Of a DNA stretch of 33,249 bases, positions 1,883 through 30,663 are shown one piece after another. This stretch comes from Kiloniellaceae bacterium. GTDB lineage: Bacteria > Pseudomonadota > Alphaproteobacteria > Kiloniellales > Kiloniellaceae. A program made the translations under genes and the position numbers. The notes under the pieces are model-generated. The model had not been told where the DNA came from, did no database searches, and saw only the letters and a list, made by a program, of their open reading frames with translations. Each line of letters opens with the position of its first letter. The stretch's first letter is position 1. Location: NCBI GenBank assembly GCA_028280915.1, contig JANQKX010000122.1, forward strand, positions 1 to 33,249, in the 5' to 3' direction.

Positions 1883-1884
1883 GA

Positions 1885-4094: not shown

Positions 4095-4339
4095 GCCGTC
4101 ATCTCCTCGATCTCCTCGGCCAAGAGACCCGCCTCGGCCATCAGCGCCAGCGTGCGGCTTGCCTCCTCCGGGCTGACTTTGTGCAGGGCATACCCCACGT
4201 GGACCAAAACGAAATCGCCGATGGTCACATGTTCCAACAAAGCCGTCGAGATGGTCTTTTTCACCCCGCCCAGGGAAACCACGGCGGTATCCGCGGCGCT
4301 GTCGACGGCGATCACTTCGGCGGGAATGGCCAAGCACAT
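4091..4339 (-). CDS. hypC: HypC hydrogenase chaperone
   Basis: 82 aa MCLAIPAEVIAVDSAADTAVVSLGGVKKTIS...; N-terminal MCLAIP. Start at 4339, inside longer listed ORFs. Confidence 0.95.
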   Translation of the reverse strand: MCLAIPAEVIAVDSAADTAVVSLGGVKKTISTALLEHVTIGDFVLVHVGYALHKVSPEEASRTLALMAEAGLLAEEIEEMTA

Positions 4340-4349
4340 GGGGCGCCTC

Positions 4350-5225: not shown

Positions 5226-5566
5226 CAGTCCACCTCCAAATCCTTGATCCGCATCTCGTCACCGCCGGTGACCTGCAATTGGAAACTACCGCACTTGGGA
5301 CAGGGGTCGTAGCGTTGGGTCACCGCGACCGTTTCCCCGCAGGGCAAACACCAGGCCTGACCTTCCGTTTCGATGATCTCCAGCTCGGCCCGGTCGGCGA
5401 TGGTATCTCTGCTGACCACCTCGAAGCTAAAACGCAAGGCCTCGATCTCCACACCGGCCAGCGGCCCCACTTCCAGCCGCACCCGCTTTACCCGGGCGAA
5501 ATTCTGGGCCGCCGCCTGCTCTTGCAAGATCCCCAAAATGCTTTCGCTGAGGGCCATTTCGTGCAT
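5225..5566 (-). CDS. hypA: HypA, nickel/zinc-binding maturation protein
   Basis: [18 protein letters not shown] start at 5566; zinc site CLPCG...CPKCG. Confidence 0.95.
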
Positions 5567-6738: not shown

Positions 6739-7298
6739 GCCTCCGTCCCCTCCTTCTCGTCCCGGGGGACGAGCAGCCGCCGGCGACTCACCGGACCCTT
6801 GGCCTTTTGAGCACCCAAATGCCGGGTCATGTCCGCCATCGGCCCTTGGCCCCTGGCTAGAGAGTACATCATGCTGTCCGGGGCGGGCGCCGACGGGGTT
6901 TCGTCCTGCTGCAGGACGGCCCCAAGCGCGGCGTTGGCGGTGATCTCAGCCGCTTTTTGATCGCTGAATTCCAGCACGGGCGAAAACAGGGAACACATGA
7001 GAAAACGGCCCAAGCCGGCTTCCTCGCTGACCATGAAGTCAAAGCGCCCCGCCGGCAGGATGTGAGACTTGGTATCCCCCACCTGGCCCGAGATTTCCCG
7101 GCCGTCCCCGGGCAGCAACACGATGTTCATGAACCACGGGGTGATCAGGATCCCGATCCAGTCGGCGCCATGGGTGCGAAACCCCACCGCTTTGACCGTC
7201 AGCCTGCCATTGACGATCGGCACGTCGTGCATGCGGGTTCGATAGATCTCCGCAAAAGTGGTCTCCAATCGGGCCGTGACAGCCGCGGCATCGTCCAT
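6735..7298 (-). CDS. hupJ: HupJ, [NiFe]-hydrogenase assembly chaperone (HybE family)
   Basis: Start reassigned to ATG at 7298 (MDDAAAVTARLETTFAEIYRTRMHDVPIVN); contains WIGILITPWFMNIVLLPG and DFMVSEEAGLGRFLMCSLFSPV. Confidence 0.9.
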   Translation of the reverse strand: MDDAAAVTARLETTFAEIYRTRMHDVPIVNGRLTVKAVGFRTHGADWIGILITPWFMNIVLLPGDGREISGQVGDTKSHILPAGRFDFMVSEEAGLGRFLMCSLFSPVLEFSDQKAAEITANAALGAVLQQDETPSAPAPDSMMYSLARGQGPMADMTRHLGAQKAKGPVSRRRLLVPRDEKEGTEA

Positions 7299-7299
7299 A

Positions 7300-7524
7300 T
7301 CAGACCTCCTCCAGCACCAGAAAGTCTTCCCGGCGCCCGTCGCAGTTGGGGCAGCTCCAATGATCGGGAAGCTGGGTGAAGGGCGTGCCCGGCGGGATCT
7401 GCCAGTAGTCATCCCCTTCCCGAGGATCGTAGACATACCAGCAAATTTTACATTCCAAGCGGGTTTGCGGCGTTACTTTCGTACTGTCGCCCCCATAGGA
7501 ACCGCCGAAAAAATGGTCCCTCAC
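7300..7524 (-). CDS. hupI: HupI rubredoxin
   Basis: 74 aa with CKICWYVYDPREGD and CPNCDGRREDF (two CxxC rubredoxin knuckles). Confidence 0.95.
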   Translation of the reverse strand: MRDHFFGGSYGGDSTKVTPQTRLECKICWYVYDPREGDDYWQIPPGTPFTQLPDHWSCPNCDGRREDFLVLEEV

Positions 7525-8390
7525 CGGTAAACTCCCAAGATTTCCGCCAGGCGTTCGGCGCTGTCGTCAATATCCTCTTGGGCGGCGCAGGCCACATCGG
7601 GAATGACGCTCACCTCGATGGTGTTCAAGATCAAAGCCTCGCGGGAATTGAAATACTGCACCCACCACACATGACGGGTGTGGCTATTGGTGATGCGGCA
7701 GTTGCCGTAGCCCCGCGATAAGATACTCACCTGGCCCCGCCCGATTTTTTGATCCAAATAGACCATATCCTCTTCGGTCAGCGGCAGTAGCGAAAGATTG
7801 ATGACGTGGGGCATTTTGGCCTCGTCAGCCAAGGCCGCCGCATCAAAGTTGTCAGTCGCGTCGGCCAATTCGGTCAACAGCGCCGGCGCGTTGGCCACGC
7901 CGTCGGGCCAGGTCTCGGCGTTTGCCGGCGAGCGCTCCCGCCCCGTTCTTTGCGCCAAGTCCAATACGGTGCCCGGAAAGGCGGCGATCTCGATCAGATC
8001 GCGGCGCAGTTTGCCTTGGGAATCGGTTTCGTAGAGGCGCCAAACCCCGGCCAAGACAGATTCCTGCACTTGCACCTTGGCCCCGGCGACCGCACTGACC
8101 TCGCCTTCGCCCAGCACTTGATTGATGAAGGCCTTGTTGGCGCCATCCAAAGCCGTGAGATCGAAAACCCGTCCGGCTTGGGAAACCTCAAAAGCGGAAA
8201 GCGTTTTTTGGACCTCCGCCAAGAGATCCAACGCGGTCTCCACCCCGTTCACCTCTTCCGGCTCGGGCATCATGGGCATGGCGTAGGTCACCATATCGTC
8301 GGGCATTTCCATGTAGTCGAACTCGACGCCATCCGGCTCCGACGGCTGGCTTCCCGGACCGGTGACGGGAAAGGGATCATAAGCGCTCAT
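7521..8390 (-). CDS. hupH: HupH hydrogenase expression/formation protein
   Basis: 289 aa; GRGQVSILSRGYGNCRITNSHTRHVWWVQYFNSREALILNTIEVSVIPDVACAAQEDIDDSAERL typical of HupH/HyaF. Confidence 0.92.
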   Translation of the reverse strand: MSAYDPFPVTGPGSQPSEPDGVEFDYMEMPDDMVTYAMPMMPEPEEVNGVETALDLLAEVQKTLSAFEVSQAGRVFDLTALDGANKAFINQVLGEGEVSAVAGAKVQVQESVLAGVWRLYETDSQGKLRRDLIEIAAFPGTVLDLAQRTGRERSPANAETWPDGVANAPALLTELADATDNFDAAALADEAKMPHVINLSLLPLTEEDMVYLDQKIGRGQVSILSRGYGNCRITNSHTRHVWWVQYFNSREALILNTIEVSVIPDVACAAQEDIDDSAERLAEILGVYR

Positions 8391-8851
8391 GATGGGGCCC
8401 CTGATGCCGTGGTGGTGTCAGCGTTGCCCTTGGTCGCGGGATAGCAACCTTGCGGAAACTTGAACGGCGGTGGCGCCGAGGGCTCCCGGGCCAGAATCTC
8501 GCCGATGTCCCTAAGGTAGTCCTGCCAGTCCTGCACCCGGGAAATCACCCCCAGATAGTCTTTGAATTTGAGAAAGACCAAGGTGGGGAAGGTGTTGAAG
8601 CGAAAGCGACGCTGCAATTGCTTTTCCGTTTCCCCCCGTGCCACCACACCGGGCACGAAGCGGCCGCCAAAGGCCGCCACCAGTTGGGGCAGGATGACCG
8701 CCACGTCGTCGCTTTCCGCCAGGCGGGCCGCATCGCCGGTGAAAAACAGCACAGAGAAGGTATTTTTGTTCAAAAAGTCGTCCACATTGGTCTCGTCGAT
8801 CAGGGCATAGCCGTGATCGTCGATCAGCATCTGTGCCAAAGGTGAAAACAT
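8387..8851 (-). CDS. hupG: HupG, thioredoxin-like accessory protein (HyaE family)
   Basis: 154 aa; FFTGDAARLAESDDVAVILPQLVAAF, FRFNTFPTLVFLK; position between hupF and hupH. Confidence 0.88.
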   Translation of the reverse strand: MFSPLAQMLIDDHGYALIDETNVDDFLNKNTFSVLFFTGDAARLAESDDVAVILPQLVAAFGGRFVPGVVARGETEKQLQRRFRFNTFPTLVFLKFKDYLGVISRVQDWQDYLRDIGEILAREPSAPPPFKFPQGCYPATKGNADTTTASGAPS

Positions 8852-8877
8852 CTCCCGTCCTTTCTCTCGGCTGGCCG

Positions 8878-9201
8878 TTATGGCTCGGCGGTTTGGGCTT
8901 GTTGGCGGAGGAATTCAGGCAACTCGGGCTCTCGATCGACCAAATCGGGGAACAGTACATCGATTTGCTGCCGGTCTCCGCCATCCAGCGCGATCGTAAG
9001 GGCTCCCAATGCGTCGGTAATCTGCCGCGCCCGTTCCTCCGAGACCTGCTCGCGCGCCGCGCCAAGAAACACCAGAACCCAGGCACCGATGGGCAGATCG
9101 CCGACCAGGGCCATGTCCACGTCTTCAACCCGTCCGGTCGTTTCACAGATCGCGCGCCCCTCCCGCCGCTCTACGATCTGCATGGGGATGGCGATACACA
9201 T
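8878..9201 (-). CDS. hupF: HupF, HypC-family chaperone
   Basis: 107 aa MCIAIPMQIVERREGRAICETTG with C-terminal extension. Confidence 0.92.
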   Translation of the reverse strand: MCIAIPMQIVERREGRAICETTGRVEDVDMALVGDLPIGAWVLVFLGAAREQVSEERARQITDALGALTIALDGGDRQQIDVLFPDLVDREPELPEFLRQQAQTAEP

Positions 9202-9824
9202 CAGCGCGCCTCATCCGGCATGAAGCGGGCATCGCCGTGACGGCAGGCCTCCTGCTCGGAAGGACGCTGGTTTTCGTAGCTCCGGAGCCCGGTTTCGGCG
9301 GTGGAGATACCCACATGGTCGCCGAGAGGCCGCGGGCGCTTAACCGCGTGGATGCCCAGACCTTGCAAATAGGATAAAGCGTGCCGGATCGCCGGTTCGA
9401 TCTGATCCTTGACCGCCGGGCGCAAGCTGCCGCCGAAATCTTCCAGTTCCACGGGCTGCACGCCGATCAAAAGCAGGTGCGCGGGGTAATCCCCCATCAT
9501 CTCGGCCATGGCCAAGACTTCCTGAAAGCCCGTCTGGTGCAGGCTCATTTTCTTGGCGCCCAGGAACTTTGGCACCTCATCCCCCTCGACCAGCTTCATC
9601 CGGCCCGGGGTGAGGCCATAGTCGACCGCGTCAAAGACCACCAGAATGTCCGTGGCGCGAATGTGCTCGACCAGGTAGATCCCCTGGGTCCCGCCATCCA
9701 TCAGCCGGACGCCGTCGGGAAAGGCGTATTGGCGGTGCAGACACTCGACGGCGCGAACACCGAAGCCCTCGTCCGCCCACAGCAGGTTTCCTATGCCCAG
9801 AATGAGAGCGCGGGGTTCGCCCAT
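9201..9824 (-). CDS. hupD: HupD, hydrogenase maturation endopeptidase
   Basis: ALILGIGNLLWADEGFGVRAVE, MDGGTQGIYLVE, FDAVDYGLTPG, SLHQTGFQEVLA. Confidence 0.95.
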   Translation of the reverse strand: MGEPRALILGIGNLLWADEGFGVRAVECLHRQYAFPDGVRLMDGGTQGIYLVEHIRATDILVVFDAVDYGLTPGRMKLVEGDEVPKFLGAKKMSLHQTGFQEVLAMAEMMGDYPAHLLLIGVQPVELEDFGGSLRPAVKDQIEPAIRHALSYLQGLGIHAVKRPRPLGDHVGISTAETGLRSYENQRPSEQEACRHGDARFMPDEAR

Positions 9825-9862
9825 GTCATCCTCCCATATTCTTGTCGTTTTACCGTCTTCTT

Positions 9863-9878
9863 TGCAAAGCCGGTGCCA
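9863..9878 (-). promoter_or_regulatory. Predicted sigma54 promoter of hupD
   Basis: Minus-strand reading TGGCAC-CGGCT-TTGCA matches TGGCAC-N5-TTGCA exactly; about 40 bp upstream of the hupD ATG. Confidence 0.8.
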
Positions 9879-9957
9879 GTTTGGCCCTCCGCGATAAAGC
9901 CTTGAGTTTTATGGGTTTTACGGCAATTCGAAATTCTGGGATATGATCTAGCGCAAA

Positions 9958-9985
9958 CCACTCTTCCATTTTTTTGGAAAAGTGG
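9958..9985. repeat. Inverted repeat upstream of the hupD sigma54 promoter; possible activator-binding site
   Basis: CCACTCTTCC-ATTTTTTT-GGAAAAGTGG, 10 bp arms with one mismatch, 80-107 bp upstream of the -24 element. Confidence 0.5.
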
Positions 9986-10081
9986 AAAGAAACCATCCAA
10001 ATCGAGGCCGTGGCGCGTTGAGCCTCATGCCTTGGCAGGCCAAAAGTGGCAGCTTGCTTATCAACTCGGCCCAAAACACTC

Positions 10082-10114
10082 AAAAAAAGCGGGGGCGGTA
10101 GTGACCGACCCCCG
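10082..10114 (-). terminator. Intrinsic terminator downstream of hupC
   Basis: Minus-strand reading CGGGGGTCGGT-CACT-ACCGCCCCCG (10 bp stem, one bulge) followed by C and TTTTTTT. Confidence 0.85.
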
Positions 10115-10155
10115 GAAGTTGATAAGGAAGAAGCAGATTTTCTTGAGACTTAGGA

Positions 10156-10902
10156 TCAGTCCAGGTCGTCCGCCGGGCGGGTGTCCTTGAACATGCGCCA
10201 GCCGGAAATCATGGAACTCACGATGCTTTGGCGCGACATGATGTCTTCCCGGATCGCCACGTAGACGTGGATGATCACAAAGATGACGATGTACCACATG
10301 CCCAGGTGATGGAAGGTGTGCAGGTCCTGGCTGTTGCCGAACAGCGGGATCACCCAGCTGGAAAACAGAACGTACTGCCAGGAATCCATGCCGGTACCCT
10401 CCCCATAGAGGGCCAGGCCCGTGATCATCATGAACACCAAGCCCCACAGCAACATGACGTGCATCACCAAGGTCGCCAGCGGGTTGTGGCCGATGTATTT
10501 CTTGGGCTCGCGCTCCAGGAAGCTGTACCACCGCACTTCGTGCCAGACCTCCCGCCACCAGGCTCCGCTCCAGACCTTGGGAAGGAACATTTGTCGGGCA
10601 TGGTGATTGCCCACGATGGCCCAATAAACCCGCAGGAGAAAGCCCACGATCAGAATGTAGCCCGCGGCGAAATGGGCAAAGCGGATGTAGCCCATGAGGA
10701 AGTTGTCGCTGGCCTCCCCGGGCACCGACGGCAAGGGCGACGCGATGAAATAGCCGGTCACGCAGAGCACGAGGATGGACAGGGCGTTCACCCAGTGCCA
10801 CAGGCGCACCGGCGCCTCATAAACATAGACGGCTTCTTGCAGTTGGCCCTCGCCCGCCCTGTCATCGATGGGGGCGTCGGTTTGTGTGTTCACGCTCATC
10901 AC
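10156..10902 (-). CDS. hupC: HupC, cytochrome b subunit of [NiFe]-hydrogenase
   Basis: 248 aa, multiple TM segments; YVYEAPVRLWHWVNALSILVLCVTGYFI, FHHLGMWYIVIFVIIHVYVAIREDIMSRQSIVSSMISGWR. Confidence 0.95.
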   Translation of the reverse strand: MMSVNTQTDAPIDDRAGEGQLQEAVYVYEAPVRLWHWVNALSILVLCVTGYFIASPLPSVPGEASDNFLMGYIRFAHFAAGYILIVGFLLRVYWAIVGNHHARQMFLPKVWSGAWWREVWHEVRWYSFLEREPKKYIGHNPLATLVMHVMLLWGLVFMMITGLALYGEGTGMDSWQYVLFSSWVIPLFGNSQDLHTFHHLGMWYIVIFVIIHVYVAIREDIMSRQSIVSSMISGWRMFKDTRPADDLD

Positions 10903-10912
10903 ATGCCCCCTT

Positions 10913-12709
10913 TCAGCGCACCTTGACCTTGGCCAGCTCCCGCCCGTCTTCGCTCATCACGTGGGTCGAGCAAGCCAGGCAAGGATCGAAGCTGTGAATC
11001 GTACGCAGGATTTCCACCGGTTCCTCCGCCCGCGCCACCTTGGTGTTGAGCAGGGAAGCCTCAAAAGCGCCGATGTTGCCTTCGTTGTCCCGCGGGCTGC
11101 CGTTCCAGGTGGTGGGCACCACGCACTGGTAAAGGTCGATCTTGGCATCCTTAATCTTGATCCAGTGGGCCAAGGCCCCGCGTGGCGCCTCGGTGAAGCC
11201 CACGCCCTTAACCTCCGACGGCCAGGTCTTGGGGTCCCACATGGTCACGTTAGCGGTGTTGGAATCCCCCGCCTTGACGTTGGCGATGAGCTTATCCTGG
11301 AAGTACTTCATCTTGTGGGCCGCCCACTGGGCCTCCAAGGCACGGGCCGCGGTCCGGCCCAGGGTGGAGAACAGGGCGTCCACCGGCACGTCCAGTGTTT
11401 TCAGCACCAGCTGGATTTGCTCGGTATAGTCCTCCCGCCCCATGGCATAACCGATGATGTAGCGGGCCAAGGGGCCCACCTCCATGGCGTGGCCTTTCCA
11501 GCGGGGCGCCTTGATCCAGGAGTACTTGCCGCTTTCGTCCAGCTCTTCAATGTGCGTCCGCGAGCCCTTGGTGGCCGGCCCCAGCTCATAGTTGGGCTCG
11601 GTGACCCCATCCCAAGGATGCAGGCCCTTGCTCTCATCCGCGTAGCTGTACCAGGAATGGGGCACGAACTCTTGGATCTGGTTGGGGTCGCGCAGGTCCA
11701 CCTCGTGCACTTCTTCCAATTTACCGTTGATGATGGCCCCGCGGGGCATCATCAGATTTTCCGGCGAATAGTCGCTGGCATTCTCGGGAATATCCCCATA
11801 GGACAGCACCGATTGGTTGGCCAAACCACCGCCATAGAGCCAGCCCTTGTAAAACTGGCCGATGGCCAAGAGGTCCGGAATGTAAACATTGTCGATGAAC
11901 TCGATGGTCTGGTCGATGACCGAGTTCACGAAATTGAGCCGCTCCATGTTGACGGCGCCCACCGCGCCCGTATCGTTCACGTTGATGGAACAGGGCACGC
12001 CGCCCACCAGCCAATTGGGGTGGGGATCCTTGCCGCCATAGACGGTGCGGATTTTCATGATGTGGGCCTGGAAATCCAGCGCTTCCAGATAGTGGGTCAC
12101 GGCCATCAAATTGGCTTCCGGCGGCAAGAGATAGGCCGGGTTGGTCCAGTAGCCGTTCTTGAAGGGCCCCAGCTGGCCGCTTTCGACAAACTTTAGCAAG
12201 CGATTTTGAATGTCCCTGAAATATCCGGGAGAGGATTTGGCGTGCTTGGGCGCCACGGCCATTTGCAGCTCCGAGGTGGCCTTGGGGTCGGCCTTCAAGG
12301 CCGTGATCGGATTGACCCAATCCAGGGCATGCAAATGGTAAAAATGCACCAGATGGTCATGCACCTGCAGGCAGAGCTGCATGATGTTGCGGATTGAGTT
12401 GGCGTTGTCCGGGATCTCAATGCCCAGGGCGTCTTCCACGCAGCGCACCGAGGTCAAGGCATGGGTGCCCGTGCACACGCCGCAAATGCGCTGGGTGAAG
12501 GCCCAGGCATCGCGCGGGTCGCGGCCTTTCAGGATCACTTCCAGCCCCCGCCACATGGTGCCGGTGGAGACCGCGTTGCGGATGATGTTATCGTCATCCA
12601 CGTTTACCTCGCAGCGCATGTGGCCTTCGATGCGGGTGACCGGATCTACCACGACACGCTGACCGGATTTGTCGAGGGTAAAGCCGTTCGGCGTTTGCAT
12701 GGTGCTCAT
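10913..12709 (-). CDS. hupL: HupL, [NiFe]-hydrogenase large subunit
   Basis: [17 protein letters not shown]-terminal and [25 protein letters not shown]-terminal NiFe motifs with cleavable tail. Confidence 0.99.
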
Positions 12710-13785
12710 TTGTCCTGCCCTCCCTTTTCAGTCAAGCGTTTCACCGCGCTGATGCCGGCATGCACGGCGACCCCGGCGCCAACCACGCCGGCCGCCGCCA
12801 GGCCCACGTCGTCGGCGTTGGCTTCGACGCCAAACTGGTGAATATTTGTCAAGCGATCGTAGAAAGATCCGTTGTCCCAGAAGCCGTCTTCCGAGCAACC
12901 GATGCAGCCATGGCCCGACTGAATCGGGAATGAGAGACCGCCGTTCCATCTGACCGTGGAACAGGCGTTATAAGTGGTCGGACCCTTGCAGCCCATTTTA
13001 TAGAGGCAATAGCCCTTGCGCGCGCCCTCGTCGTCCCAGGCCTCCACGAATTGTCCCGCGTCGAAATGGGGCCGGCGATAGCACTTGTCGTGAATGCGCT
13101 GGCTATAGAACATCTTCGGGCGGCCCTGGCGGTCCAGGTCCGGCAGTTGGCCAAAGGTCGCCATATAGGTCACCACCGCGGTCATCACCTCCGGAATGGG
13201 CGGGCACCCGGGCACCTTCACGATGGGTTTGTCGGTGATCACCTTGTGGATGGGCACCGCCTGGGTCGGGTTCGGCCGGGCCGCCTGCACACAGCCCCAG
13301 GAGGCGCAGGACCCCCAGGAGATGATGGCCTTACAGTCCTGGGCGGCGAATCTCAGTTGGTCCAGGTAAGGCTTGCCCGCGATGATGCAGTACATGCCGT
13401 CTTCGTTCAGCGGCGGATTGCCTTCGCAGGCGAGGATGTATTCGCCTTTATAGTCCCGAACGATTTCCTCGATGATGGCCTCGGCCTGGTGTCCGGCCGC
13501 CGCCATGATGGTGTCATCGTAATCCAGGGAGATCATGGACAAGATCACGTCCTTGGCCAGGGGGTGGGCCGAGCGGATAAAGGCTTCCGAGCAGCAGGTG
13601 CATTCCAGACCATGCAGCCACAGCACCGGGGTGCGCGGCTTGGTTTCCAAGGCATGGGCCATCTTGGACGCCATGGACGGCCCCATGCCCATGGCCGCCG
13701 CAGTCAGGCTGCAGAATTTCAGGAAGCTCCGGCGGGTTACCCCCTGGCGCCGCAGCACGTCGTAAAAGGTCTCTCTCATGATCAT
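12706..13785 (-). CDS. hupS: HupS, [NiFe]-hydrogenase small subunit with Tat signal
   Basis: Tat motif [35 protein letters not shown]-terminal hydrophobic anchor. Start is likely at 13785 or 13779 because GGGAGGG, a probable RBS, lies inside the longer ORF that begins at 13794. Confidence 0.98.
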
Positions 13786-16966: not shown

Positions 16967-18154
16967 TTAGAGCGCGGCCGCCTTTCGGAACGAACCCGTG
17001 GCCGTTTGCCCTTGTTCCAACGCGCCCTTCATGCGTTGGGCATACCACTGGCCAAAATGGGCAACATTCGGCTCCAGATCCAGGCAATACCGCCCCGCCA
17101 CGGCGAAGGGAGATTCCTGGCCCCGCTGCTGACGCTCCAGCGCCGGGAGGTCTTCCGCCAGAGCGGCGTCCATGCGCTGATAGTAAACGTCGGCCCGCCT
17201 CTCGAAATCTTCTTGCGCGACCGTCGACTTGGGAAAACAGACCGATTGGACCACGCGGCAGCGGTTGGCTTCCAGCGGCGTGGCTTCATAGACCCAGACC
17301 GCCTCCGTGCTGGCGGCAAAGGTCATGTTGGGAAACAGCCAGGTGTAGCGGGTGCCGCGCGCCGCCCGGCCGGTCAGGCCGGGTATTGGCGGCAGGATAT
17401 GCTCTTGCGCCGACTCAAGCAGCCCGCCGCTGCCCTCCGTCGCACCGAACTGGCTGGCGTAGCGGCCGGTGACGGTGTCGTGCCCATCGGGCGGGGCGTA
17501 GATACTGTCGATGGAATCGGGATGGACGAAAGGCAGATGATAATATTCGTTGAAGACCTCAAGGAATGCCTTCCAATTACACTCGGCCTCGAGTTCAACA
17601 CGGCGGGTCAGAACCAAATCGGGCAGGGACCAAGGGGCATGCAGAGCGGCGAAGTCCCCTAGCCAGGCGTCGATCCCTTCCGTCTCCCCGTTCAGACAGA
17701 TGAAAGCAAAACCTTCGCGCTCCGCCGCCCGGAATTCGAACAGCCCGTACCTTGACTTATCGAAGGACCCATCCTTGGGCATATGGGGCGCTCCCATCAA
17801 GCGCCCGTCCAGGGTATAGGTCCAGCAGTGAAAGGGGCAGCTGATGGTTTTGACCTTGCCGGTCCCCTCCAGGAGTTCGGATCCACGGTGGCGGCAGGTG
17901 TTGGAAAAAACCCTTAGTTGGCCCGTTCGATCCCGCAGCACGATCAGTGGAATACCGGCGATGTTCAGCGCCGAATACTCCCCCGGCGACTTCCATTGGT
18001 CGTGACGGCCGATGCCGATCCAGGACGAAGAGAACACGGCATCCCGCTCCAATCGCGCCAGATCCGGGTCATGGTAACAAGCCGGCGGCAGGGTCGCGGA
18101 GGTGGCAATGGGCGCCTGAACCGCGGCGAACTGGGCGTAAGCATCAATGGTCAT
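16967..18154 (-). CDS. Rieske [2Fe-2S] ring-hydroxylating-type oxygenase, alpha subunit
   Basis: Rieske motif NTCRHRGS...CPFHCWTY; mononuclear Fe site NWKAFLEVFNEYYHLPFVHPDSI. Confidence 0.93.
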   Translation of the reverse strand: MTIDAYAQFAAVQAPIATSATLPPACYHDPDLARLERDAVFSSSWIGIGRHDQWKSPGEYSALNIAGIPLIVLRDRTGQLRVFSNTCRHRGSELLEGTGKVKTISCPFHCWTYTLDGRLMGAPHMPKDGSFDKSRYGLFEFRAAEREGFAFICLNGETEGIDAWLGDFAALHAPWSLPDLVLTRRVELEAECNWKAFLEVFNEYYHLPFVHPDSIDSIYAPPDGHDTVTGRYASQFGATEGSGGLLESAQEHILPPIPGLTGRAARGTRYTWLFPNMTFAASTEAVWVYEATPLEANRCRVVQSVCFPKSTVAQEDFERRADVYYQRMDAALAEDLPALERQQRGQESPFAVAGRYCLDLEPNVAHFGQWYAQRMKGALEQGQTATGSFRKAAAL

Positions 18155-18792
18155 CGGATAACCTCCTGGCCGATCGCATTACGAGACGCCGCCATGGGGC
18201 CGGATGTCAAGGGTTCCCGCTCTCCCGGACGCAGGACGTCGGGATCAAAGGGTGTCCGCCCGAAGACGTCCATGACCAAGGGCCGAAAAAAAGCCAATGG
18301 CAGGTCGTCATACTCAGGATCGAAACTGCTCTGATCCCAGCGCTCGCAAAATTCCACGCAGTCGTCGAAATAGGGATTCTCCCGATACGCGTCCCGGACA
18401 TGCCGGTTTCCGCCCCGCAGGTGGGCGTAGTAATACTTTTGAAAGTCCGCATGGACTTGGATGACCCAGGTACACTGTTCCCGCACGAAGGGCGCCAGCA
18501 CATTGGCCGCGTAGTCACCGTGATTATAGGGGGCGTAGAGATCGCCGATATCGTGCAGCAAGGCCGAGACCACCCAATCAACGTCCGCCCCGTCCCGCCA
18601 GGCCCGTGTCGCAGACTGAACGGAATGGCCGAGGCGCGAAACCTGATATCCCGAAAAGCTGTCGTCGAGGGCGGTCAGAGAATCGAACAACCGCTCCCCA
18701 ACCTTCTCGGCGAAAGAGACTTCAAGCCCCTCCAGGAAGCGATAGTCATCGGCATCCCCTTGCTTCATCTCGGTGAATTTGACGTGCTCCAT
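18151..18792 (-). CDS. HD-domain protein, possibly PhnZ/TmpB-like mixed-valent diiron oxygenase
   Basis: H...HD...H...H...D pattern: LGHSVQSATRAW, SALLHDIGDLYAP, YNHGDY, QVHADFQKYYY, WDQSSFD. ATGA overlap with the Rieske gene. Confidence 0.75.
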   Translation of the reverse strand: MEHVKFTEMKQGDADDYRFLEGLEVSFAEKVGERLFDSLTALDDSFSGYQVSRLGHSVQSATRAWRDGADVDWVVSALLHDIGDLYAPYNHGDYAANVLAPFVREQCTWVIQVHADFQKYYYAHLRGGNRHVRDAYRENPYFDDCVEFCERWDQSSFDPEYDDLPLAFFRPLVMDVFGRTPFDPDVLRPGEREPLTSGPMAASRNAIGQEVIR

Positions 18793-18864: not shown

Positions 18865-18899
18865 CGTACCGGACAAGCGATAAATTTACACCACTCGAC

Positions 18900-18914
18900 A
18901 TAAGATTAACTTAT
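18900..18914. promoter_or_regulatory. LysR-type dyad next to the regulator start
   Basis: ATAAG-N5-CTTAT perfect inverted repeat (T-N11-A class) 4 bp before the LysR ATG. Confidence 0.5.
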
Positions 18915-18918
18915 ATCT

Positions 18919-19824
18919 ATGATTCGGATCATGCCCCGCTCCCTGCCGCCTCTGATCTGGTTTCGCACTTTCGACTGCGCCGCGCGTCATGGGAGTTTTT
19001 CGCGGGCCGCCCAGGAATTAAACCTGACCCAGTCCGCCGTCAGTCAGCACATCCGGTCTTTGGAAACCCGGCTCGGCGCCACCCTTTTCACCCGCCAGGC
19101 GCGAGGCGTGGCCTTGACCGATGGCGGGCGCCAGCTGCTGACCTACGTGGCCGGCGCCATGGCCGATCTCAACGCGGCGGCCGAACTTTTCTCCGGCCGA
19201 AAACAGGAATCGGTACTGGAAGTGGCCTGTTCCAGCAGTTTCGCCCGGCTTTGGCTGTGCCGGCACATCGGCTCTTTCCAAGAGTCCCATCCCGGCACCG
19301 GGGTTCGGATCGTCAGCGCGCTTTGGCCGGACGAATACACCCGGGTCAAAGCCGATGTCCAAATCCGATACGGTCCGGCGGAGCTTGTGGGTGAGGGTGC
19401 GGAACAACTTTTGGAGGACGTGGTTATACCCGTTTGCCATCCGGACCTGGCGCCGGACGCCAAGGCGGGGGACGGGATGCGGGATGCCCTGCTCATTCAT
19501 GTCCTCGGAACGGAGAATACCTGGGACCGCTGGTCCCAACACCACGGCACCCCGCCGGATGCGCCCCCGGCTCTCCACGTGGACGCCGACGAACTCGCCA
19601 TTGAACTGGCGGAACAAAAACAGGGCATTGCCTTATGCGGACGCTTGCTGTGCCAGCCCTTGATCCAAGAAGGCCGTCTTCACAGTCCCTTCCCCGGCGA
19701 GATGCCGAGCAACGAGAACTACTACGTGGCCCTGGGCGGCACCGAAAAATCCAAAGACCGCGCCCAACAGTTCAGGAAATGGATTCTGGAAACCGTAGGC
19801 CAATCGGTCAGGACAAGGTCCTAA
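18919..19824 (+). CDS. LysR-family transcriptional regulator (GcvA-like)
   Basis: LPPLIWFRTFDCAARHGSFSRAAQELNLTQSAVSQHIRSLETRLGATLFTR HTH region. Confidence 0.94.
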   Translation: MIRIMPRSLPPLIWFRTFDCAARHGSFSRAAQELNLTQSAVSQHIRSLETRLGATLFTRQARGVALTDGGRQLLTYVAGAMADLNAAAELFSGRKQESVLEVACSSSFARLWLCRHIGSFQESHPGTGVRIVSALWPDEYTRVKADVQIRYGPAELVGEGAEQLLEDVVIPVCHPDLAPDAKAGDGMRDALLIHVLGTENTWDRWSQHHGTPPDAPPALHVDADELAIELAEQKQGIALCGRLLCQPLIQEGRLHSPFPGEMPSNENYYVALGGTEKSKDRAQQFRKWILETVGQSVRTRS

Positions 19825-21986: not shown

Positions 21987-22217
21987 ATGATCGAAATGAC
22001 TTCAAATCGCCGATACGGCAGACCGTCCGTTCCATATGACCAGGCCCGGTCCGAACGGGTGGTGACCTTCCTCACCCCCTCGGAGATGACGTCCCTGAAA
22101 CGGCTGGCCGATGAATCCGCGGCCTCGCTCTCGGCCACCCTCCATCGCCTGGTCGTCCGGGAGCTTAAGGTACAAAGCCAAAAACAGTCAAAATCCGAAA
22201 GGAGAGTCGATCAATGA
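21987..22217 (+). CDS. Small ribbon-helix-helix-like protein
   Basis: 76 aa; RVVTFLTPSEMTSLKRLADESAASLSATLHRLVVREL has beta-helix-helix character; ATGA overlap with the sulfatase gene. Confidence 0.6.
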   Translation: MIEMTSNRRYGRPSVPYDQARSERVVTFLTPSEMTSLKRLADESAASLSATLHRLVVRELKVQSQKQSKSERRVDQ

Positions 22218-23857
22218 GAAGAACACTTTTGTCCCTTGCCGCGTTGGCTTTAACAACTCCCGCCATGGCGCAAAATCAAGCGATCGTCCACGACGGGGAG
22301 TACCGCTTCCTCAAGGCCCAGTTGGGCGAGCAATGGGCCGCGCAGGACCAAGGTATCCAGGCCCGCTTGGATCAGATTCACCAGGCCAACGGGGGCAAGC
22401 CGCCCAACATCATCTACATTCTCATCGACGACGTGAGCTTTGGTCAGATGGGCGACCGGACCCTGAACTACGTCACCGGCATCGATACGCCCAACATCAA
22501 CGCCTTCGCCACCGAAGGCCTGTCGTTAATGCGCATGTACACCGAACCCTCTTGCACCCCCACCCGCACTGCCTTTTTGACGGGGCGCCATCCGGTCCGG
22601 GCCGGCGTGGAAGAAGTCAAGGTCGCCCTAGTCGGCGAGGGCTTGGCCGCCGGTGAGGTCACCCTGCCGGAGATACTGAAGCAAGCGGGATACAATACGG
22701 CGCACGTGGGCAAATGGCACCAGGGCGATATCGAAGAAGCCTTTCCCCATAACCAGGGCTTCGACTGGGCCGCTTTTCCCGTGCACCAGCAAGTGCAGCT
22801 GAGTTTGATGACCCGCGAATCCCTCCAGGCCAATAACATGCTGGGCTACCATGCCGCCGGCCAATCAAATCAATTCTCGATGGATCAGCGCTTCAAGCCC
22901 TACGGCCTGGTCACGGGTCTGGAAGCCGAAGCGGGCGGACTGGCCCGGGAAATCGACTTGGAGCCCGGCGAGGAGTGGTCACAGGCCCACTACGAGCGCA
23001 TGAACCAACGCTATCAAACCCAAGCCATGGAACAGCTGGCCCGCTTGGCCGATGAGGAGGCGCCCTTTTTTCTACAGTATTGGCCGCTTTATCCCCTCAA
23101 CTTTGCCTACCCGGATCAAGCAATCTCCCGGAACGGCGGTTTTCATGCCGACAAACTTCAGTTGCTGGACGGGTGGATCGGCGAGCTGCTCGATGCCGTC
23201 GAAACCGCCGGGGTGGCCGACAACACCATTGTGATGCTGATGGCCGACAATGGGCTCATGTATCACTACGAGGGTACGTCGGGGCTGAACCAACTCATCT
23301 ATCGTGGCGGCAAAACCCAGCACCTGGAAGGGGGCGTGCGCACCAACGCCTTTATCCGCTGGCCTGGTGTCATCGAAGCCAGCAGCGCCGCTGGTGACAT
23401 TATTCACGTCAGCGATCTCTTCACGACCTTCGCCCGTATCGCCGGCGCGTCGGACTTCATTCCCCGGGACCGGGTGATTGACGGGCTCGACCAAACGGCA
23501 TTGCTGTTGGAGGGCGAAGGCAACTCGCGCCGCGACTATGTCTATATCTACGAAGGCCCCGTTTTGCGTTCGGTGGTCAAGCAGGAGTTCAAGATGCACC
23601 TGCCGCCCCCCGGTGTCCCCGGCGCGGCCGCACCGGTCTTCAACGTGTTGCGCGATCCCCGCGAGCAGTATCCGCAGATCGGCACCGCTCTTTGGTCGGG
23701 CGCCAGCTTTCAAGACATGGTGAAACGGCACAACTTGATGATCGCCCAGTATCCCCACTTGCCTCTGGGTAAGGGCGTGCCCTATGAAGGCATCGAGAAC
23801 CTGAGGCCGGAAAGCGAGGAAGCGCGCGCCGTGTTTTCTTCCTGGCAAGCCAAGTAA
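22214..23857 (+). CDS. Exported type I sulfatase/arylsulfatase
   Basis: Signal peptide MRRTLLSLAALALTTPAMAQ; PPNIIYILIDDVSFGQMGD; FGly motif CTPTRTAFLTGRHPVRAG; HVGKWH; ADNG. Confidence 0.92.
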   Translation: MRRTLLSLAALALTTPAMAQNQAIVHDGEYRFLKAQLGEQWAAQDQGIQARLDQIHQANGGKPPNIIYILIDDVSFGQMGDRTLNYVTGIDTPNINAFATEGLSLMRMYTEPSCTPTRTAFLTGRHPVRAGVEEVKVALVGEGLAAGEVTLPEILKQAGYNTAHVGKWHQGDIEEAFPHNQGFDWAAFPVHQQVQLSLMTRESLQANNMLGYHAAGQSNQFSMDQRFKPYGLVTGLEAEAGGLAREIDLEPGEEWSQAHYERMNQRYQTQAMEQLARLADEEAPFFLQYWPLYPLNFAYPDQAISRNGGFHADKLQLLDGWIGELLDAVETAGVADNTIVMLMADNGLMYHYEGTSGLNQLIYRGGKTQHLEGGVRTNAFIRWPGVIEASSAAGDIIHVSDLFTTFARIAGASDFIPRDRVIDGLDQTALLLEGEGNSRRDYVYIYEGPVLRSVVKQEFKMHLPPPGVPGAAAPVFNVLRDPREQYPQIGTALWSGASFQDMVKRHNLMIAQYPHLPLGKGVPYEGIENLRPESEEARAVFSSWQAK

Positions 23858-23913
23858 CGCTCTTGTTCAACTAACGCTCTTGGCCAATCAACGTTCTTGT
23901 CCAATCAACGTTC
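23855..23913 (+). repeat. 17-18 bp tandem repeat between sulfatase and beta-barrel genes
   Basis: TAACGCTCTTGTTCAAC / TAACGCTCTTGGCCAATC / AACGTTCTTGTCCAATC / partial AACGTTC, ending before GGGGAGG. Confidence 0.75.
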
Positions 23914-23927
23914 TGGGGAGGTAAGAG

Positions 23928-24704
23928 GTGGGGCAATCCAAGTTGCCAAATCTGATCCTAGTGTCGGTCTTGGGGGTTGTCCTCGGCCTGTTTTCCAAAG
24001 TGGTCATGGCCGAGGAAACCGAGGAGTCCCAGTGGGACTTTACGGCAGCCCCCTATATCTGGTTCACCTCCCTGCAAGGAGACGTGGCCACCATTCCGGG
24101 CATCCCGCCGGCCGATGTGGACGCCAGTTTCGGAGATCTTTGGGATAACACGAACCTGGCCGCCATGGGATACTTCGAAGCCCGCAACGGCCGTTGGGGG
24201 ATCGGCGCCGATCTGGTTTACTTCGACCTGACCGCCGACGGCGGCGGCCCCACCAACGCCTTCTCCGGCACGGAAATGGATCTCAAGGCCTTCATCGCCA
24301 CCTTTGGGCCCTTTTACCGCGCCGCGGCCGAAAAAGACTATTCCGTGGACGTGATGGCCGGCGCGCGCACCTGGGTGACGGACACCCGTTTATCCCTGTC
24401 CGCAGGCACCCTGCCCGGCCGCTCGGCGGACGCCAAGGAAAACTGGGTGGACCCGGTTATCGGCGCACGGGGCGCTTTTGCCCTGGATGAACACGTCAGT
24501 TTGCGCGGCTATGCGGACGTGGGCGGCTTTGGCGTTTCCTCCGACATCACCTATCAACTCATGGGATTGGTATCTTATTCCTTCAATGATTGGATCACCG
24601 GGGAACTGGGCTATCGCTTCTTGCATGTGGATTACAGCAACGACGCCTACAAGCTGGACGCCAATTTCCATGGGCCCCTTTTGGGCGTGCGCTTCTTGTT
24701 TTGA
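23928..24704 (+). CDS. Putative outer-membrane beta-barrel protein
   Basis: GTG start after GGGGAGG; signal peptide; WDFTAAPYIWFTSLQGDV, GELGYRFLHVDYSNDAYKLDANFHGPLLGVRFLF ending in aromatic F. Confidence 0.78.
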   Translation: MGQSKLPNLILVSVLGVVLGLFSKVVMAEETEESQWDFTAAPYIWFTSLQGDVATIPGIPPADVDASFGDLWDNTNLAAMGYFEARNGRWGIGADLVYFDLTADGGGPTNAFSGTEMDLKAFIATFGPFYRAAAEKDYSVDVMAGARTWVTDTRLSLSAGTLPGRSADAKENWVDPVIGARGAFALDEHVSLRGYADVGGFGVSSDITYQLMGLVSYSFNDWITGELGYRFLHVDYSNDAYKLDANFHGPLLGVRFLF

Positions 24705-24800: not shown

Positions 24801-25829
24801 TCAGACAGGGTCGCGGATGAGCGGGCAGGTGGAGCAATGTATGCCGCCGCCGTTGAGCTGCATCTTATCGTAGGGGATCTCGATCAACTCAATGCCCTGA
24901 CGTTCCAGCTCATCGCGCGTACCCGCCGACATGCCATGGGGCATCACGTATTTCCCCGGCCGTATGGCCAGGCCGTTGATGATCCAAGGATTGTCCTCCG
25001 GAGTGGTCTCCACGGCCCGGATGCCCAGTTCCTTGAGCTTTTGCAAGAAGGTATAGGAAAGACCGGTGGGGTCCACCAGGGCCAAATCCACATCCACCAT
25101 CACGAAATGCCCGTCGATATGGATGCTGTAACCGGGCAGGTCCACCACGATGAGCTCCACCCCTTGGCGGGCCAGAACCTCGGCCACTTGAGCGATCGCC
25201 TCGTCATTGACCCGGATACCCCGCCCCACAACGGCGGTTTTTGAATTGAGCCAGGCAAAGCTGCCGCCCTCCATCATGCCGGTGCCGGAAACGGTGGCCA
25301 GAATGGGCATGCCCGCCTTGGTCAAGGTGCGGCTCACGTCCAACTCCTCGCCGTGGCGCAGGCGGGGCGCCAAGCGGCTCACGATGGCCCCACCCTTGAC
25401 GGCAAAGGAGGAATCCCGGGTATAGCAAGATTTGAAACGATGGCCCGAGACACCCTCCAAATGGATCACCTCGATGCCCTCGGCTTCGAGCAGTCGCACC
25501 AAGCCGTCATGCTGGGCCTGCATCTCGCTCAAGGGCGGGATCTCCTCGGATTGCCAGTACCAGCCGGACTTGGGGCCACCGAAGCCGCCGGTTTCCTCAA
25601 TGTACTTTGTCGGGTCGATGATACCGAACTCCTCGCCCGGGCGGTGGACCATGACGGCGCGGATTTGACCCACGTCGTTGTCGCAGCCCCAAACCCGTCC
25701 CCAAATTTTCTCCATGCGGTCGGGATGATCGAAGGCCGGCTCCGGCTGGGAGCCGAAAAGCTTCATGGTCGCGGAATAGATATCCCTACGCTTGGTCCGC
25801 GGAGGTGTGGAATCGTTTTGGGATGACAT
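24801..25829 (-). CDS. Amidinotransferase/DDAH/arginine deiminase-superfamily guanidine-modifying enzyme
   Basis: CYTRDSSF, MMEGGSFAWL, SIHIDGHFVMVDVDLALV, NGGGIHCSTCPL (catalytic Cys). Confidence 0.83.
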   Translation of the reverse strand: MSSQNDSTPPRTKRRDIYSATMKLFGSQPEPAFDHPDRMEKIWGRVWGCDNDVGQIRAVMVHRPGEEFGIIDPTKYIEETGGFGGPKSGWYWQSEEIPPLSEMQAQHDGLVRLLEAEGIEVIHLEGVSGHRFKSCYTRDSSFAVKGGAIVSRLAPRLRHGEELDVSRTLTKAGMPILATVSGTGMMEGGSFAWLNSKTAVVGRGIRVNDEAIAQVAEVLARQGVELIVVDLPGYSIHIDGHFVMVDVDLALVDPTGLSYTFLQKLKELGIRAVETTPEDNPWIINGLAIRPGKYVMPHGMSAGTRDELERQGIELIEIPYDKMQLNGGGIHCSTCPLIRDPV

Positions 25830-25844
25830 GGCAGTCCTCTTTTC

Positions 25845-26732
25845 TTAACTATCGATCGCCGATTGGGAGTCCGGGTCGAGGAAATCACGCAACCCGTCTC
25901 CGATCAAGGTAAAGGCCAAGGCGGTCAGGGCCAGGCCCAATCCGGGAAAAGCCGCCAACCACCAATGGTTGGGCTGGTGGGTTAGCGCGCTGAAGATCAT
26001 GGCGCCCCATTCCGGCGTGGGCGGCTGCGCCCCCAGGCCGAGAAAGGAGAGGCCCGCGGCCGACAGCATCACCAGGCCCGCGTCGGAGGTGGCTTGAACC
26101 ACGATCAGGGGCAGGACGACCGGCAGGATGCACTTGACCATCACCCGGCCGTGGGACGCGCCGAGGCAGCGATAGGCCGCCACATAGTCCTCGGTCTTGA
26201 TACTGAGCACCCGCGAGCGCACCAGCCGGGCATACCACGGCCAAAACACGACCCCCAGGGCGAAGGTGGTGGTCACCAGGGTGCCGCCAAAGGTCGCCGA
26301 TATGGCGGCCGCCAGAATGAGCGCCGGAAAGGCCAGGAACACATCCGTGATGCGCATCAAGGTCTCGTCCACCCAGCCCCCCATGTAGCCAGCCACGATC
26401 CCCACCGTGGTCCCGATGATCGTGGCCATGATCAAAACCGTCAGGGTGATTGACAGACTGATGGGCGCACCGGCGAGAACGCGGGACAACATGTCCCGGC
26501 CGGTCTTGTCGGTGCCGAAGGGATGGGCCAGGGACGGCGCCTGCAAGCGTTCGCTCAGGGAGATTTTAAGCGGATCCTGGGGTGTCCAAACAAAGTCAAA
26601 AAGATGCCCGACGAGCCCGAGCAGGCTGATGACCAAAATGAGCAAGGCGATGCCGCAGCCCAGTAGGTTGAAGGGCGATCGCCCCGCGAAACCCGCAATC
26701 CGGTTTTGCCTGATGGCGCCGATCAAGGTCAT
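25845..26732 (-). CDS. ABC transporter permease, DppC-like
   Basis: PFGTDKTGRDMLSRVLAGAPISL; EAA-like loop AYRCLGASHGRVMVKCILPVVLP. Confidence 0.94.
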   Translation of the reverse strand: MTLIGAIRQNRIAGFAGRSPFNLLGCGIALLILVISLLGLVGHLFDFVWTPQDPLKISLSERLQAPSLAHPFGTDKTGRDMLSRVLAGAPISLSITLTVLIMATIIGTTVGIVAGYMGGWVDETLMRITDVFLAFPALILAAAISATFGGTLVTTTFALGVVFWPWYARLVRSRVLSIKTEDYVAAYRCLGASHGRVMVKCILPVVLPLIVVQATSDAGLVMLSAAGLSFLGLGAQPPTPEWGAMIFSALTHQPNHWWLAAFPGLGLALTALAFTLIGDGLRDFLDPDSQSAIDS

Positions 26733-27739
26733 TTCAGGACAATCCGCGGATCAAGCCCGGTGTAGGCCAAATCAATCGCCAAATTGATCAGCATATAACA
26801 GATGGAGACGATCAAGGTAATGGCCATAATGGCGTTGTAGTCGGTCGAGGAGATGGCGGCCGCCGTGTAACGGCCCAAGCCGGGCCATTGAAAGATGAGT
26901 TCCACAAAAACCGCGCCGCCGATGAGAAATCCGAAATTCAAGCCCAAGAGGGTAATGGTGGGCGGCAGGGCGTTGCGCAGGGCATGCTTGACATAAATCC
27001 GATAGGGCGACAGCCCCTTCGCCCGGGCGGTCCTGATGAAATCCTTGGACAGGATGCCCAGCATGGTAGCCCGCACCATGCGAAACAGTAAAGCAGCCGT
27101 AGGGATACTGAGCACCACCGCCGGCAAGATGAGATGGGTCAGCGCCGCCGTGAACAGCGCCATGTCCCCCGCCAGCAGGGAATCGATGATCATGAACCCC
27201 GTCACATCGGGCGGCGGGGTCGCCCCGGTGGGCAGGCGCCCGGCAAAGGGCAGCCAGCCCAACACCCAGGCGAACAGCAACTGAGCCAAGAGCGCGACCC
27301 AGAAATCCGGCAAGGAAAGACCCAGGGCGGAGGTGAAGCGGCCCGTCGCATCGGTGATCCCGTTGGCCCGAATGGCCGCGATGGTGCCGAAGACAAAACC
27401 CAAGGTGACACCGATCAGCAAGCTGAACAAAACCAGCTCAAGCGTCGCGGGAAAGAACTGAACGATGTCATCCAGGACCGGCCGCCGGGTCGAGATCGAT
27501 TGCCCGAAGTCGCCCTGCAGCACCTGATGAACATATTGGAAAAACTGTGCCGGCAGACTCTCGTTCAGCCCCATGGCCTCCTTGACCGCTTCGACCTGTT
27601 CGGCGTTGGCGCGCGGCCCCGCCAACAGCCGTGCCGGATCGCCTGGCAAGACCCGTGCCAGAATAAAGGTCAAGAGCAAGACCCCGGCCAGCATCAAGAG
27701 GGTCGTTGCCAGGCGTTTGGCGAAATAGCGTCTCATCAC
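26729..27739 (-). CDS. ABC transporter permease, DppB-like
   Basis: MRRYFAKRLATTLLMLAGVLLLTFILARVLPGDPA; TARAKGLSPYRIYVKHALRNALPP. Confidence 0.95.
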   Translation of the reverse strand: MMRRYFAKRLATTLLMLAGVLLLTFILARVLPGDPARLLAGPRANAEQVEAVKEAMGLNESLPAQFFQYVHQVLQGDFGQSISTRRPVLDDIVQFFPATLELVLFSLLIGVTLGFVFGTIAAIRANGITDATGRFTSALGLSLPDFWVALLAQLLFAWVLGWLPFAGRLPTGATPPPDVTGFMIIDSLLAGDMALFTAALTHLILPAVVLSIPTAALLFRMVRATMLGILSKDFIRTARAKGLSPYRIYVKHALRNALPPTITLLGLNFGFLIGGAVFVELIFQWPGLGRYTAAAISSTDYNAIMAITLIVSICYMLINLAIDLAYTGLDPRIVLK

Positions 27740-27776
27740 CGTAGCGTCATAGGGCGCTTGCCGAAGCGGGTTCGGT

Positions 27777-29417
27777 CTAGGTTTTACGCCGCAGGGCGTT
27801 CATATCCAGGGTCAGGACATACATGGGGTTGATCACGATGCCTTCGATATTACTGCGGTGTCCCCAGATGCCACGCTCTTGGGAAACGGGGACCCACGGC
27901 GGGTCCTCGACCGCCAGGATTTGTTGCAAACGCTCCGAGGTCTGGATGACCTGGGGGTCCGTCACATCCGCTTGATAGAGGCTGCTGATCAGATCCGTCG
28001 CTTCCGGGTTGGCATAGCGGCCCACGTTGCCATCACCGCTGCTGGCCTCGCCGGAAAACAGGCCCCAGGCATAATCGAACGGATGATTCCAATTGGGCCA
28101 CCAGGAGAAAAAGAAAAAGTCGGGCCGGTCCTCGGCCGGCGCGTCACCAAAATAATCGTCCAGAAAACCGGAGTAGGACTTTTCGACGAGTTTTAAAGTG
28201 ACACCGATTTCCGACAGCCAGGCTTGAAAGAGCTCCCCTTCCAGCGTTGCGTCTCCTTCGAAAAACTCGAAGACCAGTTCCTGAGAACGATCGAAGCCCG
28301 CTTCGGTGAGCAGGCGGTCCGCCTCGGCCAAATCAAAGGCCGGCTTCTTGATCTCCGGATTGATGGTGGCGATGGAGATGGGAAAAACACCCGCCGGCAG
28401 ATCGGCCGTGTCCAGCTTCACGTCATGCACATAGGCCGCCGCGTCAAAAGCATGGCAAAAGGCCCGGCGGACCCGCGAATCGCTCAGGCGGCCGTCGCAT
28501 GCCATGGCGATGTAGGAAATCTCCGACGACCCGCCCTCGGTCTTGCCATAGCTGGGATCATCGCCCAGCTGGATGATGTCTTCCGGTTCGCCCGGCAGGA
28601 TGATATCCGCTTCCCCGCTGGCCAGCATTTGCTGGCGGGTCGCGGAAACGGGCACGGTTTTGATGATGATGCGCTCGAACTGGCCATCATCCCAGCCGCC
28701 CCAAAAATCGGGATTTCGTTTGTAAACGGCTTCCTGGCCCGGGTCCAAGCGCTCCAGCATGTAAGGTCCCGTGCCCACCGGATTGGACCGCAGGTAGTCC
28801 GAGCCCAGGTCGTCCGGCCCCTTGGAATGACTCTCGGCGGCCGTCGGGCTGACAATGCCAAAGCCGTATTGCCCGGCCGCTTCCAAACCGAAATAGGGCC
28901 GCGGTTCGCCGAAATTGATCGCCAAGGTCAGATCATCCGAGATCGTGATGGCGTTCTCCGGGTCCTCCAGCGCCCAGTTGAAGCCCAAGCCGGTTGGATG
29001 GGTCACGGTGCGCACAATGGACTTTTTGACCGCGGCGGCATCACAGACCGTGCCATCGTGGAACGTGACCCCGTCGCGGATTTTGAATGTCCAGACTGTG
29101 TGATCAGCGTTGTGCTCCACGGTTTCGGCTAGCCAGGGCTGGTATTCGTCCACCAGCGTGCCCTTCAGGCGCGTCAGATTGTCATAAACCGGGAACAGCC
29201 CGAAGGCCCAGTTCAGGTTCGTGGCCGGGTCCAAGTCCTCGATCGCGGCGGCAACCGCGATCACCAGCGTGCCCGAATTACCGTTGGAGTCCTGGGCCAT
29301 GGCCGCGGACGGCATGAGGGACGACCACCCCAGCGCCGACAGGGTTGTCGCCGTGGAGGCCAGAAAGCTTCTCCGGGATAAAGGGCGGCTGGCGCCAGGA
29401 AGGTGTTTGAACGTCAT
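27777..29417 (-). CDS. Extracellular solute-binding protein family 5, Tat-type signal
   Basis: Probable start MTFKHLPGASRPLSRRSFLAST at 29417; KIRDGVTFHDGTVCDAAAVKKSI; NPVGTGPYMLERLDPG. Confidence 0.94.
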   Translation of the reverse strand: MTFKHLPGASRPLSRRSFLASTATTLSALGWSSLMPSAAMAQDSNGNSGTLVIAVAAAIEDLDPATNLNWAFGLFPVYDNLTRLKGTLVDEYQPWLAETVEHNADHTVWTFKIRDGVTFHDGTVCDAAAVKKSIVRTVTHPTGLGFNWALEDPENAITISDDLTLAINFGEPRPYFGLEAAGQYGFGIVSPTAAESHSKGPDDLGSDYLRSNPVGTGPYMLERLDPGQEAVYKRNPDFWGGWDDGQFERIIIKTVPVSATRQQMLASGEADIILPGEPEDIIQLGDDPSYGKTEGGSSEISYIAMACDGRLSDSRVRRAFCHAFDAAAYVHDVKLDTADLPAGVFPISIATINPEIKKPAFDLAEADRLLTEAGFDRSQELVFEFFEGDATLEGELFQAWLSEIGVTLKLVEKSYSGFLDDYFGDAPAEDRPDFFFFSWWPNWNHPFDYAWGLFSGEASSGDGNVGRYANPEATDLISSLYQADVTDPQVIQTSERLQQILAVEDPPWVPVSQERGIWGHRSNIEGIVINPMYVLTLDMNALRRKT

Positions 29418-29643
29418 TTTTCGCCTCCGATCGGTGTTCGACAAAAAGTCCAACAGATGAAAATTATTCGCTTATCTTTAGATCAGGCATGTGATTCCAC
29501 GAGATGGGCAGCCCTGAATCCACGAAAAACTGCCGAAAAAGAGAATACTTTAATCCCCCCACACTGCACAAATGAAAGCATTTGGCATAATTAATTAAAT
29601 TTTTTCATGGGACGTGATTGCGCTTTTACGCCAGGATGCCACC

Positions 29644-30615: not shown

Positions 30616-30663
30616 GGGGCCAATAGCGACCGTGAGCGGGCCTAGCCGAGAGGGATCGGAAGG

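Follow-up and report, generated by a model that had tools for sequence, protein, structure and literature searches.

The window, by which the whole 33,249-nucleotide stretch of contig JANQKX010000122.1 is meant, carries a gene for an HD-domain protein directly followed by a gene for a Rieske oxygenase alpha subunit, with a LysR-type regulator gene diverging from the HD gene, as shown in Table 1. The ATGA overlap of the two genes, which had been claimed from the sequence alone, was confirmed and suggests their translational coupling, with the HD gene upstream. The LysR protein matched the Pfam families HTH_1 and LysR_substrate as well as the GcvA subfamily (1.5e-67) and chol_sulf_TF (3e-53), the latter two under cut-off, and an orthologue with 53–57% identity occupies the same position in three further loci (L003–L005). 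In the LysR–HD intergenic region, the block TTTATCGCTTGTCCGG is conserved as TTTATCGATTGTCCAG in L003–L005, and an AT-rich palindrome comparable to that of the window was observed in L003 and L004. The LysR–HD–Rieske order was seen again in L003, L004, L005 and L100/L162. No reductase gene adjoins the Rieske–HD pair, and no CntB gene lies beside the Rieske gene of the window.

Table 1. Genes and candidate regulatory elements of the Rieske–HD locus (positions in the window).
Feature	Position	Strand	Length	Basis
Rieske non-heme iron oxygenase alpha subunit	16967..18154	-	395 aa	Pfam, PDB match, residue pattern
HD-domain putative mixed-valent diiron oxygenase	18151..18792	-	213 aa	Profile, fold, conservation
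Overlap ATGA, holding the HD stop and the Rieske start	18151..18154	-		Sequence
Intergenic block TTTATCGCTTGTCCGG (TTTATCGmTTGTCCrG), candidate promoter/operator element	18869..18884	-		
Candidate LysR operator, ATAAG-N5-CTTAT palindrome (T-N11-A type), LysR–HD intergenic region	18900..18914			
LysR-type regulator, divergent, GcvA / choline-sulfate-regulator-like	18919..19824	+	301 aa	

The Rieske protein was matched by the Pfam families Ring_hydroxyl_A (2e-35) and Rieske (9e-18), and its best sequence match in the PDB was the carnitine monooxygenase CntA (8e-35). The residues of the Rieske centre (C87, H89, C106 and H109), the bridging glutamate (E203) and the 2-His-1-Asp ligands of the mononuclear iron (H206, H211 and D335) are all present, and F201, which is kept in L003, L004, L005 and L162, occupies the position of CntA Tyr203. 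In group V Rieske enzymes an aromatic residue at position 203 marks group Va (carnitine, choline, benzalkonium) and Asn marks group Vb (betaine demethylases), and the Y203F form of CntA is active (PMC7948474). F201 and E203, both kept in L003, L004, L005 and L162, make up the group Va signature, in which position 203 of CntA is aromatic and Glu205 forms the bridge. The sequence-only reading had proposed a partner of the betaine/choline type, which holds in that the protein is nearest to the Rieske enzymes of quaternary ammonium compounds, but its residues appear to place it closer to CntA of group Va than to the betaine demethylases. It differs from CntA in having an HD partner and a low identity, 23–24% over the fold match of a poor AF2 model (pLDDT 61), whose first fold matches were the stachydrine demethylase Stc2 and CntA. 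An assignment as the glycine betaine demethylase GbcA was rejected, with 153.7 bits against a cut-off of 670 and with the diagnostic position occupied by an aromatic residue rather than Asn; another gene of the same genome scores 498 bits for GbcA.

For the HD protein, a single-sequence search of the PDB gave weak matches to PhnZ (5e-5) and TmpB (0.01), and Pfam gave a weak match to MIOX (0.0015, below the gathering score). The profile search, in which 48 HD relatives were compared with the PDB, recovered PhnZ (6e-12) and TmpB (1e-10), and all further matches were at 0.1 or above. The AF2 model (pLDDT 95.9, pTM 0.91) was matched by Foldseek below 0.001 in the PDB by ten PhnZ/TmpB chains only (1e-6 to 1e-5), the next match being the HD domain of PgpH at 0.63, and the top structural match was PhnZ 4n6w (TM 0.60/0.70, 21% identity over the match). 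By its modelled fold, the HD protein belongs with PhnZ and TmpB, as had been proposed, and not with the HD phosphohydrolases. Judged from its sequence, however, it is neither PhnZ nor TmpB: it reached 37 bits (2e-9) against a cut-off of 214.6 for NCBIfam Phn-HD, it missed two further curated NCBIfam cut-offs (27.9 versus 300 and 23.9 versus 300 bits), lying far under that of TmpB, and in the tree its clade is split from the TmpB family with support of 100/100. A 2020 review lists three characterised HD-domain oxygenases only, MIOX, PhnZ and TmpB, and in its tandem pathways the hydroxylase is Fe/2OG-dependent (PMC8177086). The members of the present clade are publicly annotated as phosphohydrolase, HD domain-containing or hypothetical protein. 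In a literature search that covered mainly open-access papers, and that is therefore weak evidence of novelty, neither the clade, nor an HD member of a carnitine operon, nor a Rieske–HD pair was found described.

The predicted iron ligands of the HD protein (H56, H80, D81, H91, H114 and D153) lie in the motifs GH56S, LLH80D81, NH91G, QVH114ADF and WD153Q. This six-ligand set, already pointed out in the sequence-only reading, is invariant across an alignment of 122 clade members and is therefore not a product of chance, and the spacing of 24 residues from H56 to H80, given there as that of PhnZ, indeed equals PhnZ H34–H58 in the PDB alignment. Also invariant in the 122 members are R53, Q59, D84, Q118, W109, F148 and F157, and almost all members keep D158 and Y49. 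The six ligands and Q59 are common to the clade and 12 TmpB-family proteins, whereas R53, D84, Q118, W109, F148 and F157 are clade-specific invariants. The YxxE sequence, the O2-gating loop of PhnZ and TmpB (PMC8177086), has Y and E in 12 of 12 TmpB-family proteins, but reads F46-x-x-Y49 in the window and F, L or another residue followed by x-x-Y in the clade; a distant HD relative in L156 retains a YxxE-like sequence. With this loop absent, oxygenase activity is not assured. All substrate-pocket positions checked differ from the 12 TmpB-family proteins, and the columns of PhnZ H62, K108 and R158, which we take to be phosphonate-pocket contacts, are held by D84, Q118 and E150 in the window. 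Since D84 and Q118 are themselves invariant, a different specificity is likelier than decay, and the changed pocket accordingly looks like altered specificity at the level of the alignment. With its ligand set and modelled fold, the HD protein looks like a bond-cutting diiron oxygenase.

The clade is common in Alphaproteobacteria, being present in 43 of 63 genomes of the window's order. In the tree, the window type comprises the window, L003, L004, L005 and L100 (support 100/89) and falls within a group of HD genes from carnitine operons (98/96). Seven HD genes were observed in or adjoining BKACE / carnitine 3-dehydrogenase operons, such as that of L007, which stands between BKACE and carnitine 3-dehydrogenase (764 bits, cut-off 592); the carnitine operons with an HD gene hold no hydroxylase, which indicates that tandem action is not universal. 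In L162, of the window's family, genes for GbdR-like, acyl-CoA dehydrogenase, acyl-CoA ligase and crotonobetainyl-CoA hydratase-like proteins lie a few genes on from LysR–HD–Rieske, and the dehydrogenase, ligase and hydratase-like proteins share 61, 53 and 81% identity with their counterparts in the carnitine operon of L007. The window's own genome holds a second clade member, 48% identical, beside the corrinoid activator RACo and a GbdR-like regulator (L129:212-3974, contig C342), and the RACo–HD–GbdR-like arrangement recurs within the window's taxonomic order (L119–L128). It also holds, on another contig, a bona fide TmpB (G000:C306:17896-18450; 308.9 bits, cut-off 300), so that one genome houses HD enzymes of both the phosphonate type and the new type.

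The genome scan yielded 77 usable loci, over which neighbourhoods were counted. A hydroxylase was the immediate neighbour of the HD gene at 37 of 152 positions (24%), versus 5 of 735 (0.7%) at positions 2–8, an approximately 35-fold difference, and in 34 of the 77 loci it was co-directional with the HD gene and at most 160 bp away. Hydroxylase–HD adjacency is thus conserved and strongly enriched, and with the recurrent LysR–HD–Rieske order the conserved pairing named earlier as a check is present; neither of the outcomes named in advance as speaking against the assignment, a grouping with phosphohydrolases and a lack of conserved pairing, was observed. Five partner superfamilies were found, namely PhyH Fe/2OG, the most frequent, TauD Fe/2OG, Rieske, membrane diiron fatty-acid hydroxylase and AibH2-like Mn/Fe. 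The TauD partner, used by one related branch of the clade, is closest to TmpA (347 bits versus a cut-off of 400). In three Mesorhizobium loci (L038, L073 and L078) an AibH2-like PF04909 protein with six of six Mn/Fe ligand motifs is followed by a small Rieske ferredoxin and then the HD gene; such hydroxylases are partners of relatives only and not of the window's HD protein. These loci (L038:6512-8636, with L073 and L078) may give a hint as to which class of substrates the AibH2-like family, so far uncharacterised, acts on (PMC10401708). The exact Rieske–HD pair is rare, with five loci of the window type, and other Rieske branches are paired with HD genes in L067, L155/L161 and L156/L160. In L160 (G421:C14, 5377-10430), and also in L161, a PhyH gene, two tandem HD genes, a Rieske gene, an SDR gene and a second PhyH gene stand together; at least one HD protein of these clusters has a YxxE-like sequence and the Rieske protein lacks the group Va aromatic residue, so that a different substrate is likely. 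In nearly half of the first set of HD genes, neither a hydroxylase nor a carnitine-operon gene was recognised as a neighbour, which likewise argues against tandem action in all cases.

We consider it somewhat probable that the pair is an aerobic catabolic cassette that breaks down, in two steps, a trimethylammonium compound akin to carnitine, gamma-butyrobetaine or choline, and that is controlled by the divergent LysR protein. On the basis of homology and residues, the first step would be the hydroxylation of a substrate carbon by the Rieske enzyme, which would receive electrons from a reductase encoded elsewhere and hold the substrate with F201 facing the ammonium group. The HD protein would then carry an Fe(II)/Fe(III) pair, of which one iron may bind the new hydroxyl and a neighbouring group while the other activates O2; hydrogen would be abstracted from the hydroxylated carbon and the adjacent C–C bond cut in a four-electron oxidation without external reductant, as in PhnZ, TmpB and MIOX, giving a shorter betaine acid. 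From the chemistry of MIOX and PhnZ we infer that a C–C bond would be cut. Such a cassette would resemble TmpA/TmpB of the 2-trimethylammonioethylphosphonate pathway in the pairing of hydroxylase and HD diiron oxygenase genes, in ligand set and fold, and in a presumed trimethylammonium-type substrate; it differs in that the hydroxylase is a Rieske and not an Fe/2OG enzyme. PhnY*/PhnZ of the 2-aminoethylphosphonate pathway shares the tandem logic, again with another hydroxylase class. MIOX is likewise an HD-domain mixed-valent diiron oxygenase and cleaves C–C bonds, but it is larger, works without a partner hydroxylase and was not among the significant fold matches of the HD protein.

The sequential hydroxylation and C–C or C–P cleavage suggested earlier is narrowed by these data: C–P cleavage is disfavoured, while C–C cleavage and the substrate are what we infer. 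If the Rieske enzyme stood in for PhnY or TmpA, and if the HD protein, as a divergent TmpB/PhnZ, used an alpha-hydroxyphosphonate, it would fit that PhnZ and TmpB are the nearest characterised relatives of the HD protein and that some relatives have a TmpA-like TauD partner, but the replaced residues relative to the 12 TmpB-family proteins (Y to F, L or other, E to Y, H to D84, K to Q118 and R to E150), the TmpB over cut-off elsewhere in the genome, the window, in which phosphonate genes were not recognised, and the carnitine-operon setting of the relatives all argue against it; C–P cleavage by the pair is therefore unlikely as read from the pocket residues, and this version of the pathway seems quite improbable. 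An ordinary HD phosphohydrolase or nucleotidase with incidental hydroxylase adjacency, which the public annotation as phosphohydrolase or HD domain-containing protein favours, was rejected on fold, ligand set and neighbourhood and is given a low probability, since phosphohydrolase fold matches were at E 0.6 or worse, the H..HD..H..H..D oxygenase set is complete and invariant, and hydroxylase neighbours are enriched as counted above.

The two proteins may also act in separate steps, the Rieske enzyme demethylating or cleaving a C–N bond like CntA or GbcA, and the HD protein handling another intermediate of carnitine or betaine breakdown. CntA and GbcA are not known to need an HD partner, no HD gene lies in the vicinity in L157/L158, where the nearest homologues of the Rieske protein outside the pair are encoded (55%), and the occurrence of HD genes in hydroxylase-free carnitine operons points the same way, but the ATGA coupling speaks against such independence, and the recurrent adjacency of HD genes to five hydroxylase superfamilies is difficult to account for if the HD protein does not require a hydroxylated substrate; this reading is held to be unlikely. 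There is a slim chance that trimethyllysine is the substrate, being hydroxylated at position 3 and then cut by the HD protein at C2–C3 of the amino alcohol to gamma-butyrobetaine, which would feed the neighbouring butyrobetaine/carnitine genes. Such a route would account for the variable hydroxylases and for the HD gene inside butyrobetaine-to-betaine operons, and has a chemical precedent in MIOX-like diol cleavage (PMC8177086), but it is pure conjecture, with the hydroxylase-free carnitine operons against it. Under the preferred two-step reading, a need of the HD enzyme for hydroxylated substrate would explain why such varied hydroxylases stand beside HD genes, and a compound already hydroxylated in the carnitine operons would explain why no hydroxylase is needed there.

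More tentatively, and with a chance short of even, the clade may represent widespread undescribed diiron oxygenases for C–C cleavage of hydroxylated trimethylammonium compounds of the carnitine family, joined in evolution to at least five chemically unrelated hydroxylases, so that hydroxylation followed by cleavage would be a general strategy beyond phosphonates. If these are C–C cleaving quaternary-amine oxygenases, a missing branch of carnitine, butyrobetaine and choline metabolism becomes testable, and the changing hydroxylase partner would be a natural experiment on the substrate need of the HD enzyme.

Further genes were observed in the window. An amidinotransferase/dimethylargininase-like gene lies with an oligopeptide-type ABC transporter at 24801-31668; an oligopeptide-type binding protein (27777-29315) was rejected as a part of the system, having 24% identity to the pair-adjacent one in L003–L005, of which it is not an orthologue. 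At 22214-24704, a gene for a secreted sulfatase (Pfam Sulfatase 9e-38) precedes one that probably encodes an outer-membrane protein, and a large [NiFe] hydrogenase cluster with structural and maturation genes occupies 182-13785 on the minus strand.
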